A stretch of DNA of 64,000 nucleotides from Halococcus qingdaonensis. GTDB taxonomy: Archaea; Halobacteriota; Halobacteria; Halobacteriales; Halococcaceae. Shown here piece by piece: positions 4,936 through 63,484 of this stretch. The stretch covers positions 2,081,112 through 2,145,111 of the forward strand of contig NZ_CP101943.1 of the NCBI RefSeq assembly GCF_024508235.1, given 5' to 3'. Every line of letters begins with the position of its first letter. Position 1 is the stretch's first letter. Under the pieces are notes generated by a model. That model did no database searches and had not been told where the DNA came from. It saw only the letters and a program-made list of their open reading frames with translations. A program made the translations under genes and the position numbers.

Positions 4936-4960
4936 CGATGGGGATGAGATTCGAACCACG
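4936..4960 (-). other. Degenerate copy of the tRNA-Ser 3' end
   Basis: The stretch resembles the 3' part (acceptor and T-arm) of the tRNA-Ser gene, with ATTCGAACC preserved, but the rest of the tRNA is absent. It lies exactly 140 nt downstream of the tRNA 3' end at 5076, twice the 70-nt spacing seen for other tRNA relics in this window. The 115 bases between are rich in words such as TCACTCACTCCGTTCGCTC. Confidence 0.6.
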
Positions 4961-5075
4961 GTCGTTTCACTCACTCCGTTCGCTCCACTCTCTGCTTCGA
5001 ATTCCACCGTACTCGTTTCACTCGCTCACGCGGTTGCTCGCGCACGAAGCGCTCGCAGGATGGTTCGCTCGGAAA

Positions 5076-5158
5076 CGGTGGGGATGGGATTCGAACCCAT
5101 GAGGCCATCGGCCACCTGTTTTCAAGACAGGCGCAATCGTCCACTCTGCCACCCCACC
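5076..5158 (-). tRNA. tRNA-Ser (anticodon UGA)
   Basis: This is a full cloverleaf of 83 nt. Acceptor GGTGGGG pairs with CCCCACC, the anticodon stem CCTGT/ACAGG holds the loop CTTGAAA (anticodon TGA), a long variable arm is present as expected for class II tRNAs, and the T-arm is ATGGG-TTCGAAT-CCCAT. The discriminator base is G. CCA is not encoded. Confidence 0.95.
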
Positions 5159-49002: not shown

Positions 49003-50010
49003 GTGAACCAACTCGTCGACGGGGAGTGGCGGACCGACATCTACGAAACGACGAACGACGACGGAGAATTCGACAGAGAGGAGACCAGTTTCAGGAACTG
49101 GGTGAAAGCCGATCCCGACGCGGAATTCCCGGCCGAGGCGGGGCGCTACCATCTCTACGTCTCCTATGCCTGCCCGTGGGCACACCGGACGCTCGTGACG
49201 CGCGCACTACGCGGCCTCGAGGACGTCATCTCGGTCGATATCGTCGATCCCTACCGCGAGAACGACGGCTGGCAGTTCACACCCACGCGCGAGGGCGCGA
49301 CGACCGACTCGCAGAACGATTTCGACTACCTCCGGGAAACCTACGTCGCGGCCGATCCCGATTTCACGGGTCGCGTGACTGTGCCCGTGCTCTGGGACAA
49401 AGAAAAGGAGACCATCGTCAACAACGAATCCGAGGAGATCATGCGGATGCTCGACACGGCCTTCGCGGAGTTCGGCAACGACGTAACCCTCTATCCCGAG
49501 GGCTATCGAGAGGCGATCGACGAGACCATCGACGCCATCTACGATCCCATCAACAACGGCGTCTATCGGGCAGGCTTCGCCGACACGCAGGAGGCCTACG
49601 AGAACGCCGTCGGCGATCTCTTCGACGCGCTCGACCACTGGGAGGGAGTGCTCGCCGACCAGCGCTATCTCTGTGGCGACGTCCCCACCGAAGCCGACGT
49701 CGCCATGTTCACGACGCTCGTCAGGTTCGACGATGTCTACCATACCCACTTCAAATGCAACGTCCGAAAGATCGCCGAATATCCCAACCTCTGGAACTAC
49801 CTGAAGGAGCTCTACCAACTGCCTGGCGTGGCCGACACGGTATGGATGGACCACATCACGGAACACTACTACGAGACCCACACCGACGTCAATCCGAAAG
49901 GCATCGTCGCCGTCGGTCCCGATCACGATTTCGACGCCGACCACGATCGCGATCGGCTGGCCGGTGGGCCGCCCGAGGAACTTCGGCAGACCACCTCGAC
50001 CGCCGACTGA
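49003..50010 (+). CDS. Glutathionyl-hydroquinone reductase-like (Xi-class GST) protein
   Basis: A 335-residue thioredoxin-fold plus helical-domain protein of the YqjG/ECM4 type. YHLYVSYACPWAHRTLVTRAL near residue 46 carries the catalytic Cys of CPWA. VNNESEEIMRMLDTAF near 138 binds the thiol gamma-Glu group, and YLCGDVPTEADVAMFTTLVRFD near 222 marks the C-terminal domain. The family reduces glutathionyl-hydroquinones; haloarchaea lack glutathione but make gamma-glutamylcysteine, so the thiol partner probably differs. GTG at 49003 (VNQLVDGEWR) is the family-like start and has a promoter box 27 nt upstream. Confidence 0.88.
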   Translation: MNQLVDGEWRTDIYETTNDDGEFDREETSFRNWVKADPDAEFPAEAGRYHLYVSYACPWAHRTLVTRALRGLEDVISVDIVDPYRENDGWQFTPTREGATTDSQNDFDYLRETYVAADPDFTGRVTVPVLWDKEKETIVNNESEEIMRMLDTAFAEFGNDVTLYPEGYREAIDETIDAIYDPINNGVYRAGFADTQEAYENAVGDLFDALDHWEGVLADQRYLCGDVPTEADVAMFTTLVRFDDVYHTHFKCNVRKIAEYPNLWNYLKELYQLPGVADTVWMDHITEHYYETHTDVNPKGIVAVGPDHDFDADHDRDRLAGGPPEELRQTTSTAD

Positions 50011-50149
50011 GGCCCCGTCGCAAGCAATCGACCGCTACGTGCTGCGAAAACAGTTCGCTGCGGCGTCGATACACCACCTGAACCCGCCAGACACATCAAA
50101 ACACCTCATCAGCGGAGAGCACCCGTCTGCAATCATCGCGCTGTAGCGG

Positions 50150-52408
50150 CTAGTCGCCAAACAGTCGAGCAAAGAATCCACTGGATTCGTCCTGTACCTC
50201 GTCAGACTGCGTGGAGTTCATGCCGACTGCAGCAGTACCGTTGAGAAGATCTTCGACTGAATGCCCTATCCACTCGGCGAATTCCACAGGGGCACCGATG
50301 TAGACGCTGGTAGCGGATTTCTCGGACATGAACCGTTTGGGCAGGCGCTTCTCGTAGTCATACACTTCGTATTCTTCGCGGTCGAAGTCAGCGGTGATCG
50401 CGCCGGGTTCGGATGCGAACGTAATGCGACCACCCTGAATATCACGCTGCCATTTCAGACGCCCCGTGTCGTACGTTTTCTCGGCCGGTTCGTCGGCAGG
50501 GAAATATTCGGGCTGCGGTCGGTCGGCTTCGTCGTAGAACTCGCGGAAGATCTGCCGAACGTCTTCGATGGTTCCGTGCGAATCGGTCCACGGTCGCTCG
50601 GTGAGCATCCGGCGGGCGACGTAACTGAAGATCGGGTTCCGGCGCTCCAGCACGTTCGAAAGGTCGTCTTGGGCTTCATGGAACCCCGGATCTTCCGGAT
50701 TGGACGGGAAGGAGACGTCCATATTCAGGATCTTCATTCGGTTGCGGAACTCCGATGTCGGAAGCGCGTCGTTCGTCGTGAAAATCAAACAGGGTTGATC
50801 GACACTGGTTGGCATCCAGTCGCTCCAGTAGTTTCGGATCGGACTCCATCCATGGAGTTTCTCCTTCTCCGCATCGATGATGGCATACGGGAAGCTAGTG
50901 TCCCACTCACGGATACCGCGGATCGCCTTGACACCGATCTCGTCCGCGTCGACTCCTGAGATAACCGTATTGTCGGAGATGAGCCGAAGGATGTACTCGG
51001 TGAGCTTGTCCTTCCCGGCGTCGCTCTTCCCCTCGATGTAGAGGTGTTGAAGAACGTTGTCAAGCGTCCGTGACGGCGACGACAAGGCCTCGGCGTACTG
51101 ATTGGCGAACGGAGCCCAGAACCCATAGAGGAACGCTTCGTACATCTTTGCCATCACTGCGGTCTCGGATTGCGTGTGGCCGTGGTTTTCGACGGTCTCG
51201 ATGTATTCCTCGATGGTTTCGAGGCAGTGATTCAGGACTCCGGATGTCGGATCCTCGGTGGCGACGAGGATCATCTCGTCGTCCTCTCCGATCACGATCT
51301 GTTCGGCCTCTGGAAGAACCGACATCGTCGGAATGGCCGTCGACTCCCTGACCTGGTTGTTGTACGCACTCAGCGGCGCGACGATGCTATGATCTTCGAC
51401 AGTGCCACCGCGGTTGCGAAGACCGATCCCGAACTCGTCGGCGACGTCCTTGTCGACCGTGCTCGTACCCATCCGTATCTTTTCCTCGGGTGCGCGGACC
51501 CGCGGCCGGTCAAGCGTGTCAGTCAAGCCCGTCTCGTGGGCCGATTCAACGAGCCCGACCTCCGGTGGTTCTGCGGTGCTGTCAGTCGTCTCGGAATGGT
51601 TCTCGTCGGTCGAATCGTCGCGCTCGGTGATATTCCGGTCGGCGTTCTCGGGTCCTTCGACGAACGCGACAGTCTCAGCAGCCTCCTCTGGATCATCGAC
51701 AACTGCGGTGATCCGATCAGCGACAGCTTTCAGATCCTCGACCGCATCCCGATTCAGAGCGGCTGTGTCGCTCATGTCGAGGTCACCGGCACCGACCCAG
51801 TACTCGATACGATTTTCCCGCTCTTGAGGCGAGTCCGCCCCCGCGATCGCTTCGACCAAGCCTTCGAGGAGCGTTTGATCGCTATACCTCTCCCGATACT
51901 CGTCGATGAACGTCTCGAACGCCTCGTCGAACTCTGTCCCGATGTCGGTCGTGAAAACGGAGATCTGGTTGGTATGATACTCCCACGAGTTCCGCGAGAG
52001 ATTCGCTGACCCCTGCACGAGTTTTACCGTGTCGTCCGGCATGACGATCCGATAGATCTTCGAATGTACGGTCTTGCGATTCTTCAACCGAATCACGAGA
52101 CGATCGTCTTGGCGCAACTGGACGAGTGAGCGGGCCGTCGAAACCTCGTTGACGTGATCCGCGTAGTTGTCGGCGTTCCCGATGAGCACGTCCAGCGATC
52201 CGACGCCGTACTCCGTCAGCATCGTCACCATCAGCTCGGGCGTCTCGGCGTACGTCACAGCGTCCACGTGACGAGCACCCTCGAATAGATCGAGAAAATC
52301 AGCTCGTTGCTTTACCATCTCCAAGCGGTATCCGGCGGCACCTGGGCCGTAGAACTCCGGCATATCGGAAAACCTATCGAACGAGATAGTCGCTGTCAGC
52401 TTATCCAT
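50150..52408 (-). CDS. Fusion of PLD-family nuclease domain and P-loop (SF3/AAA+-like) ATPase
   Basis: A 752-residue two-domain protein. Residues about 1-180 form a phospholipase-D-superfamily domain: H115-x-K117 in TVHSKIYR and G133-S-A-N-L-S in VQGSANLSRNSWEYHTN. A low-complexity acidic linker spans about 235-310. Residues about 370-640 contain a Walker-A-like G460-x4-G-K466-D467, a Walker-B-like YAIIDAE (508-514), and LIFTTNDALPTSEFRNRMKI (541-560), whose Asn and Arg resemble sensor-1 and arginine-finger positions of viral SF3/D5-type ATPases. The start is set at MDKLTATISF because a TTATTC box lies 27 nt before it; an ATG at 52510 adds 34 poor residues. GC is about 52% in 60 counted bases (50161-50220), below neighbours. 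It is a candidate defence or mobile-element ATPase-nuclease. Confidence 0.7.
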   Translation of the reverse strand: MDKLTATISFDRFSDMPEFYGPGAAGYRLEMVKQRADFLDLFEGARHVDAVTYAETPELMVTMLTEYGVGSLDVLIGNADNYADHVNEVSTARSLVQLRQDDRLVIRLKNRKTVHSKIYRIVMPDDTVKLVQGSANLSRNSWEYHTNQISVFTTDIGTEFDEAFETFIDEYRERYSDQTLLEGLVEAIAGADSPQERENRIEYWVGAGDLDMSDTAALNRDAVEDLKAVADRITAVVDDPEEAAETVAFVEGPENADRNITERDDSTDENHSETTDSTAEPPEVGLVESAHETGLTDTLDRPRVRAPEEKIRMGTSTVDKDVADEFGIGLRNRGGTVEDHSIVAPLSAYNNQVRESTAIPTMSVLPEAEQIVIGEDDEMILVATEDPTSGVLNHCLETIEEYIETVENHGHTQSETAVMAKMYEAFLYGFWAPFANQYAEALSSPSRTLDNVLQHLYIEGKSDAGKDKLTEYILRLISDNTVISGVDADEIGVKAIRGIREWDTSFPYAIIDAEKEKLHGWSPIRNYWSDWMPTSVDQPCLIFTTNDALPTSEFRNRMKILNMDVSFPSNPEDPGFHEAQDDLSNVLERRNPIFSYVARRMLTERPWTDSHGTIEDVRQIFREFYDEADRPQPEYFPADEPAEKTYDTGRLKWQRDIQGGRITFASEPGAITADFDREEYEVYDYEKRLPKRFMSEKSATSVYIGAPVEFAEWIGHSVEDLLNGTAAVGMNSTQSDEVQDESSGFFARLFGD

Positions 52409-52431
52409 ACGGAGAACAACGGACTGGAGTG

Positions 52432-52438
52432 AATAAGT
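52432..52438 (-). promoter_or_regulatory. Putative TATA box of the PLD-ATPase gene
   Basis: CTTATTC on the minus strand lies 24-30 nt before the ATG at 52408. The 200 bases upstream are unusually A/T-rich and include CCCCAT-CTCAAT-ATGGGG at about 52504-52521, a small inverted repeat that could bind a regulator. Confidence 0.45.
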
Positions 52439-52626
52439 CCATGCCTGTATTACTCTCACATGAAGATAGATGTGTTTCGTTCTCACACACGAGTACGAAA
52501 GCACCCCCATCTCAATATGGGGTATTATCTATTCTCTATTTCAAAACCGCCACACATCTCGGGAATAATCGAGCTTCGAGTTTGAATATTTGAGTGGAAA
52601 AATCATATGTACCACGAGGGCCGACG

Positions 52627-52840
52627 ATGGGTGAATCAGGTCGGAATTCGTAGACGGAGCGTACGAGTGGGCGTGAGCGCGTCAGGCACGTCGTGGAGCT
52701 GTTGGAGGAGCCCACCCCGGTGCAGACGATCGCCGACCGCGCGGAAGTTTCGCGTGCAACCGCCGACGACGAGCTCGAGCATCGGCTCACGGAGCTGAAG
52801 GAAGACGTCAATGATTTCAGGTATGATCCCTTTCCGCTTC
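52627..52840 (+). pseudogene. Decayed HTH transcriptional regulator (DUF7342-like)
   Basis: Pieces of one protein lie in different frames: EFVDGAYEW from 52644, then RERVRHVVELLEEP and PVQTIADRAEVSRATADDELE from about 52672 onward in another frame. Together they read like the N-terminal helix-turn-helix of haloarchaeal DUF7342-type regulators, with stops and frameshifts before and a truncated end after DDELE. It is therefore a gene remnant, next to the tRNA-Phe fragment ladder and upstream of the PLD-ATPase gene. Confidence 0.6.
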
Positions 52841-52896
52841 GGATTTGGATCGGAGGAGACGACAGTTCATTCGCTCATGTGTCGTCGGCAAAACGA

Positions 52897-53120
52897 GTGC
52901 CACCTCCGGGTTTGAGCCGAAGGAAGACGTGCCACTCTCTTCGCTCGTTACGCGTGACTTCCACAGTTCAAATCCGTCCGGTATTCCTTCTCGACCGTTC
53001 GCGTCGCTCACGGTCTCGAAGTATGCCGCCTCCCGGATTTGAACCGGAGCAAGACGGTCCTGCTCGTTCGCCTCACTCACAGTACGGGCTGCGACTTGCG
53101 GGGTTCAAATCGCGGTCCGA
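52897..53120 (-). repeat. Ladder of tRNA-Phe 3'-end fragments
   Basis: Four partial copies of the tRNA-Phe T-arm/acceptor region begin near 52897, 52957, 53023 and 53090, before the intact gene at 53183. The copy at 53023-53047 is identical over 25 bases to 53182-53206. The other three are degenerate but keep TTTGAGCC or TTCAAATC cores. Steps are about 60, 66, 67 and 93 nt. Spacers share words like GTTCGCGTCGCTCAC. No gene lies in this stretch. Confidence 0.75.
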
Positions 53121-53182
53121 ATGCAGATTTCCTGCTCACAGACTCGGTCGCATCGCTCCCTCGCTGGTTCGCGGAGAAATCA

Positions 53183-53256
53183 TGCCGCCTCCCGGATTTG
53201 AACCGGGGACAGCTCGATCTTCAGTCGAGTGCTCTCCCAGTCTGAGCTAAGGCGGC
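53183..53256 (-). tRNA. tRNA-Phe (anticodon GAA)
   Basis: A 74-nt cloverleaf. Acceptor GCCGCCT pairs with AGGCGGC, anticodon stem CTCGA/TCGAG encloses CTGAAGA (anticodon GAA), and the T-arm is CCCGG-TTCAAAT-CCGGG. The discriminator is A. Its 3' end is the parent of the fragment ladder downstream. Confidence 0.96.
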
Positions 53257-53304
53257 TCACTCCGATCGATGTCGACCCAACGAAAAAGGATTTCGAAAGG
53301 CGGC

Positions 53305-53424
53305 TCAGTGGACGAACAGATCCGCCACGTCGAACTCGGTCCCGCAGTCGGTGCAGACGTAGCCGAGCCCGTCCTGGGTCTGCACGTGACCACCGCATTC
53401 GGGACACGTCGAGCCGGATATCAT
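53305..53424 (-). CDS. 39-residue zinc-ribbon mini-protein
   Basis: ATG at 53424 opens a 39-codon frame: MISGSTCPECGGHVQTQDG followed by LGYVCTDCGTEFDVADLFVH. Two CxxC pairs (CPEC and CTDC) 16 residues apart form a classical zinc ribbon, as in TFIIB-like or ribosomal-type fingers. The codon choice and acidic end support a real gene. It lies between tRNA-Phe and tRNA-Val. Many haloarchaea encode such zinc-finger micro-proteins; its role is unknown. Confidence 0.75.
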   Translation of the reverse strand: MISGSTCPECGGHVQTQDGLGYVCTDCGTEFDVADLFVH

Positions 53425-53512
53425 CACCGTAATTTCGCCACGGCGGGCAAAGCCACTTTCGCTCGGCGAACGTCGCCCGACCGGTTTTTGCGCTCCAGCG
53501 ACAACTCACACC

Positions 53513-53602
53513 ATGACGTCTTCACAGACGGTGGCGGCGCTCTTCGCGCTCGCGATGCTGGTGTTCGCGGCGGGGTTCGTGGTCATCATCCTCCTCAGTT
53601 GA
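53513..53602 (+). CDS. 29-residue single-helix membrane mini-protein
   Basis: ATG at 53513 gives MTSSQTVAALFALAMLVFAA then GFVVIILLS, one hydrophobic helix with a short polar start. It is divergent from the zinc-ribbon gene, with an 88-base gap containing GGTTTTTGCG about 30 nt before the ATG. A clean short frame with a promoter-like box favours a real gene, but no family is recognised. Confidence 0.5.
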   Translation: MTSSQTVAALFALAMLVFAAGFVVIILLS

Positions 53603-53624
53603 TCGACGAAGTCACAGAATCCGA

Positions 53625-53655
53625 TGGACCCCGGCGGAGTCGAATCGCCCTCGAT
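53625..53655 (-). other. Degenerate copy of the tRNA-Val 3' end
   Basis: TGGACCCCGGCGGAGTCGAA and the following bases match the start of the tRNA-Val 3' region at 53694 with a few changes. The copy starts 69 nt downstream of the tRNA 3' end and lacks the 5' half of a tRNA. Confidence 0.6.
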
Positions 53656-53693
53656 CCAGAATTCGCTGCTCGCTGTCGCTCACAGGAACTGAG

Positions 53694-53767
53694 TGGGCTC
53701 GGGCGGAGTCGAACCACCGATCTCGGCCTTGTAAAGGCCGCGTCATAACCAACTAGACCACGAGCCC
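53694..53767 (-). tRNA. tRNA-Val (anticodon UAC)
   Basis: A 74-nt cloverleaf. Acceptor GGGCTCG pairs with CGAGCCC, anticodon stem CGGCC/GGCCG encloses TTTACAA (anticodon TAC), and the T-arm is GGTGG-TTCGACT-CCGCC. The discriminator is A. Confidence 0.95.
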
Positions 53768-53818
53768 TCATCGGGAGAACTGCCGCACGTCGAATAACCC
53801 TTTCTCTCTGTCGGAACG

Positions 53819-53824
53819 TTTAGG
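53819..53824 (+). promoter_or_regulatory. TTTAGG promoter box of the DUF192 gene
   Basis: TTTAGG begins 29 nt before the GTG at 53848. The conserved distance supports the GTG as start and a leaderless message. Confidence 0.5.
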
Positions 53825-53847
53825 CCTCCGCTCGTCAATTCCCATCC

Positions 53848-54357
53848 GTGAACCGCGGGCGCGTTCTCAACGTCCTGTTCGCGCTGGCCGTCGTCGCGCT
53901 GGCCCTGACGACGGCCGTCGCCACCGGCGTCGTGCCGCCGCCAGCGACGCTGTTCGACACCGGCGAGTACGATCACGCCGAGATCATGATCACGAACAAC
54001 TGCTCACAGGAGTTGGGGACGGTCGACGTCCGCATCGCCGAATCGCGCCAGCAGAAGATCGTCGGCCTCTCCGAGACCGCCACCCTCCGGAACGGCTCGG
54101 GCATGCTCTTCCCATACGACGAATCGGGCGACCACACCTACGTGATGCGCGGGATGGACTTCCCGCTCGACATCGTGTTCATTGGGGACGACGGTCGCAT
54201 CAACGCCATCGAGAGCGCGCCCGCACCCGGACCGAACCAGGACGGCAACGACATCCAACGCACCGGCACGGGGAAATACGTCCTCGAAGTACCTCGCGGC
54301 TGGATGGAGAGTCACGGGATCGATGTCGGTCATCGCGTAACGGTCGACCGCTCGTGA
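53848..54357 (+). CDS. DUF192-family exported protein
   Basis: A 169-residue protein with an N-terminal signal/anchor helix (residues 6-28, VLNVLFALAVVALALTTAVA) and a DUF192 domain: VDVRIAESRQQKIVGLSETATLRNGSGMLFPYDESGDHTYVMRGMDFPLDIVFIGDDGRI shows the family's G(L)M-FP-Y-MR-M-PLD pattern, split here by a few substitutions. Residues after the helix would face outside. The domain has a small beta-barrel fold of unknown role. The GTG start is supported by a TTTAGG box. Confidence 0.85.
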   Translation: MNRGRVLNVLFALAVVALALTTAVATGVVPPPATLFDTGEYDHAEIMITNNCSQELGTVDVRIAESRQQKIVGLSETATLRNGSGMLFPYDESGDHTYVMRGMDFPLDIVFIGDDGRINAIESAPAPGPNQDGNDIQRTGTGKYVLEVPRGWMESHGIDVGHRVTVDRS

Positions 54358-54415
54358 ACCGGCGGCGACATCCGAGTTCGAGGGTATGGAAGTGGTTCAC
54401 AGGCCCGAGAAGCCT

Positions 54416-54421
54416 TTTAGG
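54416..54421 (+). promoter_or_regulatory. TTTAGG promoter box of the ABC exporter
   Basis: TTTAGG begins 29 nt before the ATG at 54445, the same arrangement as at 53819 and 21181. It argues against the in-frame GTG at 54421 as a start. Confidence 0.55.
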
Positions 54422-54444
54422 TGCGCATCCGCTTTATTGGTTCA

Positions 54445-56367
54445 ATGAGTTTTTCTTCCGACGACGAGGATCCTTTTGAGGATCAACGGGAGGGGACCGA
54501 CAACGCCATGCGACGGCTGTTCGCCGAGTACGGTCGCAAGAACGCTTTCTCCTTTCTCGTCGGCACGCTGACGAGTCTGGTCGCGCGGATGCTCGATCTG
54601 CTGCCGCCGCTACTGCTCGGTATCGCCATCGACGCCGTGCTCAATCAGAACCAGCCGTTCGGGCTGGGGCCGGTTCCACAGGCGTGGTTGCCGACCACCC
54701 GCACCCAGCAATTCTGGCTCATCGCCGGCATCATCGCCTTCGCCTTCTTCGGCGGCGCGATCTTCCATTACGGGCGCAATTGGGGCTGGAACTCCTTCTC
54801 GCAGAACATCCAGCATCAGATCCGGACGGACACCTACGACAAGATGCAGCGGCTGAACATGGATTTCTTCGCCGACAAACAGACCGGCGAGATGATGTCC
54901 GTGCTCTCGAACGACGTGAATCGGTTGGAGCAGTTCTTGAATGGCGGGATGAACTCGGTGTTCCGGCTCACGGCGATGGTGCTCGGGATCGCGACCGTCA
55001 TGTTCCTCACGAACTGGCAGCTCGCGCTCATCGCGCTCTCGCCGATCCCGCTGATCGGGGGGTTCACCTACTACTTCGTGAAGAAGATCCAGCCCAAGTA
55101 CGCCGCCGTCCGCTCGTCGGTCGGCGAGATGAACTCCCGCCTCGAAAACAACCTCGGCGGGATCCAGGTGATCAAATCCACCAACACCGAGGGGTACGAG
55201 TCCGACCGCGTCGACGACGTCTCGCAGTCGTACTACGATGCCCAGTGGGGAGCGATCAAGGTGCGCATCAAGTTCTTCCCCACGCTGCGCGTCATCTCGG
55301 GGATCGGCTTCGTCGCGACGTTCATCGTCGGCGGCATCTGGGTGTTCCAGGGTCCACCGGGGCCGTTCACGAGCAACCTCTCGGTCGGGCTGTTCACCAC
55401 GTTCATCCTCTACACGCAGCGGTTCATCTGGCCGATGGCGCAGTTCGGCCAGATCATCAACATGTATCAGCGCGCCCGCGCCTCCGCCGAGCGCATCTTC
55501 GGGCTGATGGACGAACCGAGCCGGCTCGCACAGGATCCCGACGCCGAGGAACTCGCCGTTTCGGAGGGACGCGTCGAATACGACGACGTGAACTTCGGCT
55601 ACGACGAGGACGAGCGCACGGTCAAGGACGTCTCCTTCGACGTGGCCGGTGGTGAGACAGTCGCGCTCGTCGGTCCCACGGGAGCGGGGAAATCCACCGT
55701 GCTGAAACTCCTCCTCCGGATGTACGACGTCGACGACGGCGAGATCCGGATCGACGGCCAGGACATCGGTGACGTGACGCTGTCGAGCCTGCGCCGGTCG
55801 ATCGGTTACGTGAGTCAAGACTCCTATCTGTTCTACGGCACGGTGAAGGAGAACATCGCCTACGGGAGTTTCGACGCCACCGACGAGGAGATCGTCGACG
55901 CCGCGAAGGCGGCCGAGGCCCACGAGTTCATCGAGAACCTCCCGGATGGCTACGAGACGATGGCCGGCGAGCGCGGCGTCAAACTCTCGGGCGGCCAGCG
56001 CCAGCGCATCACCATCGCACGAGCGATCCTCAAGGACCCCGCGATCCTCGTGCTCGACGAGGCGACTTCGGACGTCGACACCGAGACGGAGATGCTCATC
56101 CAGCGCAGCCTCGACCGGCTGACCGAGGATCGCACCACCTTCTCGATCGCCCACCGACTCTCGACGATCAAGGACGCCGACGGGATCGTCGTCTTGGAAG
56201 ATGGCCAGGTGAAAGAACACGGCACCCACGAGGAACTGCTCGAACTGGGCGAGCTGTATGCGAACCTCTGGGCCGTCCAGGCCGGCGAGATCGACGAACT
56301 TCCCGAAGAGTTCGTCGAGCGCGCGACCCAGAGACAGGCCCAGACGGAAGCCGGAACGGGCGACTAG
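54445..56367 (+). CDS. ABC exporter (fused permease and ATPase)
   Basis: A 640-residue half-transporter of the MsbA/LmrA type. An acidic N-terminus is followed by six membrane helices (about 40-340), including FADKQTGEMMSVLSNDVNRLEQFLNGG. The nucleotide-binding domain has Walker A GPTGAGKSTVL near residue 412, Q-loop YVSQDSYLF, signature LSGGQRQRITIARAILKDP and Walker B ILVLDEATSDVDTETE, then the H-loop IAHRLSTI. It probably dimerises and exports lipids, peptides or drugs; the substrate is unknown. The last four bases overlap the convergent small acidic gene. Confidence 0.93.
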   Translation: MSFSSDDEDPFEDQREGTDNAMRRLFAEYGRKNAFSFLVGTLTSLVARMLDLLPPLLLGIAIDAVLNQNQPFGLGPVPQAWLPTTRTQQFWLIAGIIAFAFFGGAIFHYGRNWGWNSFSQNIQHQIRTDTYDKMQRLNMDFFADKQTGEMMSVLSNDVNRLEQFLNGGMNSVFRLTAMVLGIATVMFLTNWQLALIALSPIPLIGGFTYYFVKKIQPKYAAVRSSVGEMNSRLENNLGGIQVIKSTNTEGYESDRVDDVSQSYYDAQWGAIKVRIKFFPTLRVISGIGFVATFIVGGIWVFQGPPGPFTSNLSVGLFTTFILYTQRFIWPMAQFGQIINMYQRARASAERIFGLMDEPSRLAQDPDAEELAVSEGRVEYDDVNFGYDEDERTVKDVSFDVAGGETVALVGPTGAGKSTVLKLLLRMYDVDDGEIRIDGQDIGDVTLSSLRRSIGYVSQDSYLFYGTVKENIAYGSFDATDEEIVDAAKAAEAHEFIENLPDGYETMAGERGVKLSGGQRQRITIARAILKDPAILVLDEATSDVDTETEMLIQRSLDRLTEDRTTFSIAHRLSTIKDADGIVVLEDGQVKEHGTHEELLELGELYANLWAVQAGEIDELPEEFVERATQRQAQTEAGTGD

Positions 56368-63411: not shown

Positions 63412-63484
63412 CGTCCTGGCGGAGATTTGAACTCCGGTCACCGGCTCCGCAGGCCAGTAGGATAGTCCACTACCCAACCAGGAC
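63412..63484 (-). tRNA. tRNA-Arg (anticodon GCG)
   Basis: A 73-nt cloverleaf. Acceptor GTCCTGG pairs with CCAGGAC, anticodon stem CTGGC/GCCGG encloses CTGCGGA (anticodon GCG), and the T-arm is CGGAG-TTCAAAT-CTCCG. The discriminator is G. Confidence 0.93.

Follow-up and report, generated by a model that had tools for sequence, protein, structure and literature searches.

The tRNA-Phe gene in the window (the whole stretch of 64,000 nucleotides of Halococcus qingdaonensis DNA analysed here) is followed by a ladder of partial copies of its own 3′-end, and the question raised by this locus is how such a ladder comes about. An initial annotation had described four copies at steps of about 60-93 nt, apparently of different ages, and had suggested that integrative elements repeatedly entering and leaving the tRNA gene could have left them as scars. 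The answer favoured here, to which we give an even chance of being correct, is that mobile cassettes, gene-less and non-autonomous, are arrayed in the ladder, and that they represent a family widespread among haloarchaea.

Layout of the tRNA-Phe ladder

The ladder consists of two head-to-tail units downstream of tRNA-Phe, and the order of parts is the same in both. Each unit carries a hairpin at its 5′ side, one half of the T-arm in inverted orientation (the anti-T arm), a scaffold of the form AGTCGCAG...GACCGTCT and a direct copy that spans the tRNA from G53 to the final base. The features are as follows (positions in the window, with the supporting evidence in brackets).

53183-53256, minus strand: tRNA-Phe(gaa), the anchor gene (ARAGORN, Rfam RF00005)
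53183-53204, minus strand: last 22 nt of tRNA-Phe, the sequence copied downstream
53024-53182, minus strand: unit 1, 159 nt, the youngest, adjoining tRNA-Phe (covariance model R1, 72.4 bits)
53126-53181, minus strand: 5′ hairpin segment of unit 1, GATTTC...GAAATC (sequence and fold)
53102-53113, minus strand: anti-T arm of unit 1, GCGATTTGAACC (sequence; pairing with the copy)
53046-53097, minus strand: scaffold of unit 1, AAGTCGCAGCCCG...GGACCGTCTTGCTCC (pattern match; family covariation)
53024-53045, minus strand: exact copy of the tRNA-Phe 3′-end in unit 1, 22/22
52898-53023, minus strand: unit 2, 126 nt, older and degenerate (R1 match of 57.9 bits at 52905-52981)
52988-53020, minus strand: 5′ hairpin of unit 2, TTCGAGACCGTGAGCGACGCGAACGGTCGAGAA (sequence)
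52965-52976, minus strand: anti-T arm of unit 2, CGGATTTGAACT (sequence)
52898-52919, minus strand: degenerate copy of the tRNA-Phe 3′-end in unit 2, 14/22
52831-52852, minus strand: putative fossil third copy, CGATCCAAATCCGAAGCGGAAA (sequence only)

In the 64 kb there are two exact occurrences of the 22-mer from the tRNA-Phe 3′-end, at 53183-53204 and 53024-53045, with a next best match of 15/22, and the 25-nt identity reported earlier between 53023-53047 and 53182-53206 was confirmed as an exact match. The scaffold of unit 1, which comprises a covarying stem, an internal loop and a variable apical part, gave the only match to its pattern in 64 kb, with 0 expected. The copy of unit 2 by itself (14/22) stands at chance level in the window, and it was accepted because unit 2 as a whole matches the family covariance model at 57.9 bits. 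The resemblance at 52831-52852 is possibly a fossil third copy of the tRNA-Phe 3′-end. Sequence near-identical to the 5′ hairpin of unit 2 was found directly 3′ of tRNA-Phe in the relatives G009 and G007.

Two of the four copies described earlier, the exact one at 53024-53045 and the degenerate one at 52898-52919, are indeed direct copies of the 3′-end, whereas the other two are inverted and represent T-arm halves (53102-53113 and 52965-52976), not 3′-ends. Likewise, the spacing of about 60-93 nt exists, but it arises because inverted and direct arms alternate within units that measure 159 and 126 nt; the remark that so regular a step is unlike ordinary att duplications was borne out. No integrase gene lies between the copies, and the adjoining gene called foreign-looking turned out to be no part of the ladder. 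That gene (50150-52510, minus strand, 786 aa) gave weak PLD-like matches, to RE_NgoFVII and PLDc_2, both under the Pfam cut-offs. When window positions 50000-55000 were searched with Rfam 15, only the two tRNAs scored above the gathering threshold, and the units matched no family.

Units behind other tRNAs and on plasmids

A search of this genome for 3′-end copies found a tRNA gene's own 3′-end downstream of 7 of the 42 tRNA genes and upstream of none, and tRNA-Trp was recognised as the eighth tRNA of this genome with a unit. Two further cases lie in the window, behind tRNA-Ser(tga) and tRNA-Val(tac).

4936-5075, minus strand: unit behind tRNA-Ser(tga) (5076-5158), model match of 26.7 bits
4936-4957 and 4994-5005, minus strand: copy (20/22) and anti-T arm of the tRNA-Ser(tga) unit
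53625-53693, minus strand: remnant unit behind tRNA-Val(tac) (53694-53767), with a copy at 53625-53646 (18/22)

As a separate observation, Rfam identified a tRNA at 63412-63484 on the minus strand (genome positions 2144523-2144595) that ARAGORN had missed, and about 50 nt downstream of it stands a copy of some 13-15 nt of its acceptor end, CTCCGCCAGGACG.

When the Phe region was compared with 20 relatives, matches far from tRNA-Phe proved to be units of this kind behind Leu, Ser, Gly, Ile, Tyr, Arg, Lys, Val, Ala, Cys and Asp tRNAs, and these always end in a copy of the local tRNA. The exact scaffold pattern was then found in a scan of 84,980 genomes at least 120 times, and 79 of the 80 named records among the matches listed belong to Halobacteria; the single bacterial match among these records was dismissed as chance. 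In the loci listed, 106 of 125 matches lie downstream of a same-strand tRNA, with 18 amino acids represented, and 72 of these 106 carry a copy identical to the local tRNA over 21 nt. The listed matches placed otherwise are mostly at contig starts, at intron-bearing tRNAs or at displaced 3′-end fragments.

A covariance model was built from 47 cores, which had been selected by the pattern, so that its invariant columns are partly so by construction, and the covarying columns lie outside the pattern. The model, whose E-values are rough, hit 18 of 19 genomes of the order (haloarchaea); in the 101 genomes tested from the rest of the phylum it had no hit. The sole genome of the 19 without hits, G116, is probably Haloquadratum. 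Three complete genomes yielded 82 model hits, 72 of them downstream of a tRNA and on its strand, and a unit accompanies 18 of 55, 16 of 43 and 20 of 42 tRNAs, respectively. The units are gene-less and about 100-170 nt in size, commonly near 100-140 nt, and their arrays reach four copies. A dense one-strand tRNA gene cluster in another genome (G015:C1:2635124-2637763) was also seen to have unit-like model hits among its tRNAs.

Pattern scans and a consensus-core search revealed no unit in viral contigs or phage records. A loose scaffold pattern gave 120 hits in viral contigs, none with T-arm flanks and hence taken as chance, stricter patterns gave none, and a third pattern gave 21 weak hits, of which those examined were ordinary phage tRNA genes. 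The consensus-core search of plasmids and phages, whose bacterial matches were also put down to chance, yielded one unit behind a plasmid-borne tRNA-Gly and, as a second case, a core that interrupts a tRNA within a plasmid tRNA array. This array of about 22 tRNA genes, on the Haloarcula halophila plasmid NZ_CP119561.1 (234157-246214), is flanked by genes for a type-B DNA polymerase and a TROVE (Ro60-like) protein. In this single case the core lies exactly between nucleotides 53 and 54 of a tRNA that, in our reading of the letters, would be a tRNA-Cys, and no duplication accompanies it. An uninterrupted form of this tRNA was found in none of the plasmids or phages searched, and viral contigs hold 66 exact matches to the junction of the interrupted gene.

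Presence, absence and covariation of the units

All comparisons of unit gain and loss were made between species. The downstream flank of the Phe locus, TACTTCGAG.CCGTGAGCGACGCGAACG, stands directly 3′ of the tRNA in G009 and almost so in G007, and the same flank stands after two different units in this genome (G000) and in G001. At the locus of tRNA-Ser(tga) and superoxide dismutase in Halorubrum, zero, one or two units are present depending on the species. A pair was counted as filled/empty when what follows the first copy in one species matches what directly adjoins the tRNA in another. In the pair L371/L389 the flank identity is 0.89 over 110 nt and the unit measures 123 nt, and flank identities of 0.90, 0.85 and 0.82 were obtained for L383/L367, L056/L057 and L002/L003, respectively. 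In most pairs the difference lies at the tRNA-proximal position, and mean identity to the tRNA is 98.6% for first copies and 95.2% for second copies. The earlier suggestion of different-aged copies from repeated events thus held, in that related species differ in the ladder and copy identity drops with distance from the tRNA; a ladder that is the same everywhere, which the initial annotation had set against repeated events, was not what the species compared displayed. Insertion of units is well supported. A single filled/empty pair could equal a precise deletion between the 21-nt repeats, and insertion over precise excision in any one pair is what we infer.

Local tandem duplication through slippage or template switching would also build a ladder, and near-identical neighbouring units in some arrays (L061, L062) indicate that tandem duplication does occur secondarily. 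As the origin of the units it is refuted and has hardly any probability left: adjacent units often show no relation in their 5′ hairpins and bodies, and slippage cannot import a new body such as that by which L371 differs from L389. The tRNA-proximal body, too, often bears no relation to the unit behind it, a pattern that slippage cannot yield. Resemblance between bodies was seen in two settings: the nearest-neighbour body lies at the same tRNA in another genome for 14 of 82 units (3.5 expected), and at another tRNA of the same genome for again 14 of 82 (5.6 expected, 95th percentile 11).

The units also occur in unusual settings. In Halobacterium sp. KA-4, a unit stands behind a gene of the enolase superfamily (Pfam PF13378, PF02746). 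The sequence duplicated there, GTTCGACGAGGCGTAAG, is 17 nt from the 3′-end of that gene; this is a single case, and it follows that the target need not be a tRNA. In G015, inverted cores were found between T-loop arms at both a tRNA-Phe (L012) and a tRNA-Ser (L431).

The tRNAs that carry units also serve full-size, integrase-bearing elements, which are something separate from the units and, in the cases seen, lie between the tRNA and its displaced array. An example is G077, where an array severed from its tRNA (unit 1221360-1221428; C1, L411) has an integrase gene (1220286-1220840) directly next to it, apparently through insertion of a full-size integrated element between tRNA and array. This shared choice of tRNAs, and the att copy of the tRNA 3′-end that such elements retain, speak for the reading of the ladder as scars of repeated integration and loss. 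However, scars would not share a covarying scaffold across all tRNAs and genera, nor would their sizes cluster near 100-140 nt; the units contain no remnants of an integrase, and the att copy that was closely read (L219) is without the scaffold. What was inserted is a unit of 100-170 nt with a family-wide scaffold and covarying stems, and the scar reading is therefore largely refuted and highly improbable.

The stems of the units covary. Two positions beside the scaffold are paired in all or nearly all sequences and use all Watson-Crick types, as in the column pair 25-81, which is GC in 18 sequences, AU in 16, CG in 13 and broken in 0. Over 20 pairs the covariation score was 0.340 against 0.153 after shuffling, with 0 of 500 shuffles as high, and it fell to about 0.115 when the partner was shifted by one column. 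The anti-T arm follows the unit's own copy, with a best match of 7.80 of 10 compared to 6.52 when copies were shuffled among units; examples are GTTCGAGCCCTGG with CAGGGCTCGAAC (tRNA-Asn) and GTTCAATTCCC with GGGAATTGAAC (tRNA-Gly). No shuffled version folded as well as unit 1 or the unit L366 (z −2.65 and −2.52, respectively), and unit 1 gives a good DNA fold on either strand; good folding has been lost in unit 2 and the Ser unit. In G019, units behind tRNA-Arg(ccg) and tRNA-Ser(gga) (L065 and L073) were observed to have near-identical apical sequences next to scaffold-adjacent stems that differ and are each self-complementary.

The pairings can be read as those of an RNA or of a folded DNA strand alike, and covariation suits both. 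The most serious rival is a structured RNA within the tRNA transcript, such as a trailer-processing, termination or regulatory element, in which the anti-T arm pairs with the copied or the real T-arm and the copies are kept by selection or gene conversion. Several stems covary, as does the anti-T arm with the T-arm, unit 1 and L366 fold well, and units take a same-strand position downstream of tRNAs, all of which fits this explanation. It is nevertheless unlikely, since most tRNAs of the three complete genomes are without a unit, congeners differ in unit presence at the same tRNA, arrays grow up to four copies, one unit stands on a protein gene, two cores are inverted, and unit 2 and the Ser unit now fold poorly.

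Proposed recombination at the T-loop and related systems

The layout of the units, their ties to the local tRNA, the covariation, the presence or absence at the tRNA-proximal site, the inverted cores and the bodies shared between tRNAs of one genome are observed in the sequences; the precise crossover point, the strand that folds, the intermediate and the enzyme are what we infer, in the following course. A cassette would be a hairpin unit of roughly 100-170 nt that carries its own copy of one tRNA's 3′-end. Its recombination with the tRNA gene would fall in the T-loop, near G53/T54 and within the universal GTTCRA, at a site folded from the anti-T arm, the scaffold and the T-loop, with the recombining enzyme supplied in trans. 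The incoming 3′-end would restore the tRNA, and the old 3′-end would be displaced downstream, where it appears as the copy. Later insertions would reuse the intact tRNA, leaving the youngest unit proximal and older units to decay farther off. With recombination in the T-loop, it would make sense that the identity starts at G53, that one insertion lacks a duplication, that cores can be inverted and that the carried end restores the tRNA; a folded site would account for the conservation of the inverted arm and the stems in paired form. In the genome sequences compared, no recombination event, excised form or responsible enzyme was seen.

Casposons duplicate 14-15 nt of their target, and CRISPR adaptation duplicates a repeat. 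By analogy, a Cas1-like or other integrase could insert the unit through a staggered cut and duplicate about 21 nt, from the T-loop to the tRNA end. The exact duplication of 21-22 nt together with tRNA-proximal growth does recall CRISPR polarity, and the KA-4 unit duplicates 17 nt of a protein gene. Yet a fixed cut leaves unexplained why the inverted arm follows the local tRNA, how a unit inserted without duplication and how cores became inverted, which renders this route improbable.

As for the enzyme of the cassettes, this genome contains a single PF00589 tyrosine recombinase (G000:C1:1079997-1081034, L427), whose relatives, at 60-68% identity, are single-copy in 20 of the 20 genomes of the order tested; outside the order only weak similarity was found. 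It is also present in the genome without detectable units. Because it is universal in the order, that genome included, co-occurrence cannot single it out, and it is a candidate only. A fuller version of the cassette reading would be an integron-like system without cassette genes, in which an order-wide chromosomal tyrosine recombinase inserts, inverts and excises cassettes at tRNA T-loops via folded hairpins, routinely swapping 3′-ends; we hold this version only tentatively, as possible and rather doubtful.

The attC core sites of integrons read RYYYAAC...GTTRRRY. The unit core, RTTYGAAC/GTTCRAAY, differs from this and is set by the tRNA T-loop, its GTTCRA having an extra C; the units also carry no genes, and their anchor is a tRNA that each cassette would repair. 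Like integrons, the units have a hairpin site that is conserved in its outer part, covaries in its stem and is variable at its apex, as well as inverted core sequences and array growth beside a fixed, attI-like point. Gene-less integron cassettes are the best functional analogy, and we use it as a working one. When 21 genomes were searched for the integron integrase IntI (TIGR02249), none scored above the curated cut-off, and the weak hits were general tyrosine recombinases. On these grounds, no IntI above the cut-off and a different core, an integron cassette array proper was rejected. Archaeal integrons have been described (PMC9668308).

Other insertion systems share particular features with the units. 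Archaeal integrative elements with tyrosine recombinases reside in tRNA genes (PMC8371274). The units resemble them in the insertion into the 3′ part of the tRNA, its restoration and the direct repeat of the tRNA end, and differ in their size of 100-170 nt, the lack of genes and integrase, the inverted arm and the ladders. Casposons, too, use tRNA genes. Casposon and CRISPR insertion have in common with the units the target-proximal growth of an array with repeated target sequence; in the units, however, what is repeated is the end of the tRNA, the inverted arm tracks the target sequence, and one insertion occurred without duplication.

Among elements already described, the closest are the small mobile repeats (SMRs) from Haloquadratum. 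SMR-A and SMR-B of Haloquadratum walsbyi are about 110 bp, gene-less and inverted at their ends, their mobilisation is unexplained, and SMR-A insert into the palindromes of PATEs and IS605-type transposons (PMC3119063). SMRs are near-identical within a type, target other mobile elements and make no target duplication (PMC3119063). As a class, the SMRs of haloarchaea span about 80-110 bp, and their inverted ends are unrelated to those of transposons. The units agree with them in size, inverted arms, gene-lessness and a strong preference of site. In contrast, the units sit on tRNA T-arms, would restore the 3′-end of the tRNA, carry arms matched to the target and form arrays; target copies are the rule among them, with one plasmid case lacking any, and no units were detected in G116, taken as Haloquadratum. 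We therefore file the units under neither the SMRs nor the integrons and rate them as close to the small-mobile-repeat kind. A search of the literature outside subscription journals found no published description of the units, and the family appears to be undescribed.

If the cassette reading is true, tRNA 3′-ends would be renewed throughout the order by tiny cassettes that bear the correct end, and tRNA genes would act as both landing site and selective filter. It would give a simple account of the many partial tRNA copies in haloarchaeal genomes, represent a natural folded-site recombination system outside integrons, and offer a testable partner for the conserved chromosomal recombinase. Even if the units are RNA elements, they would constitute an order-wide covarying structure tied to each tRNA and unexplained by any family found.
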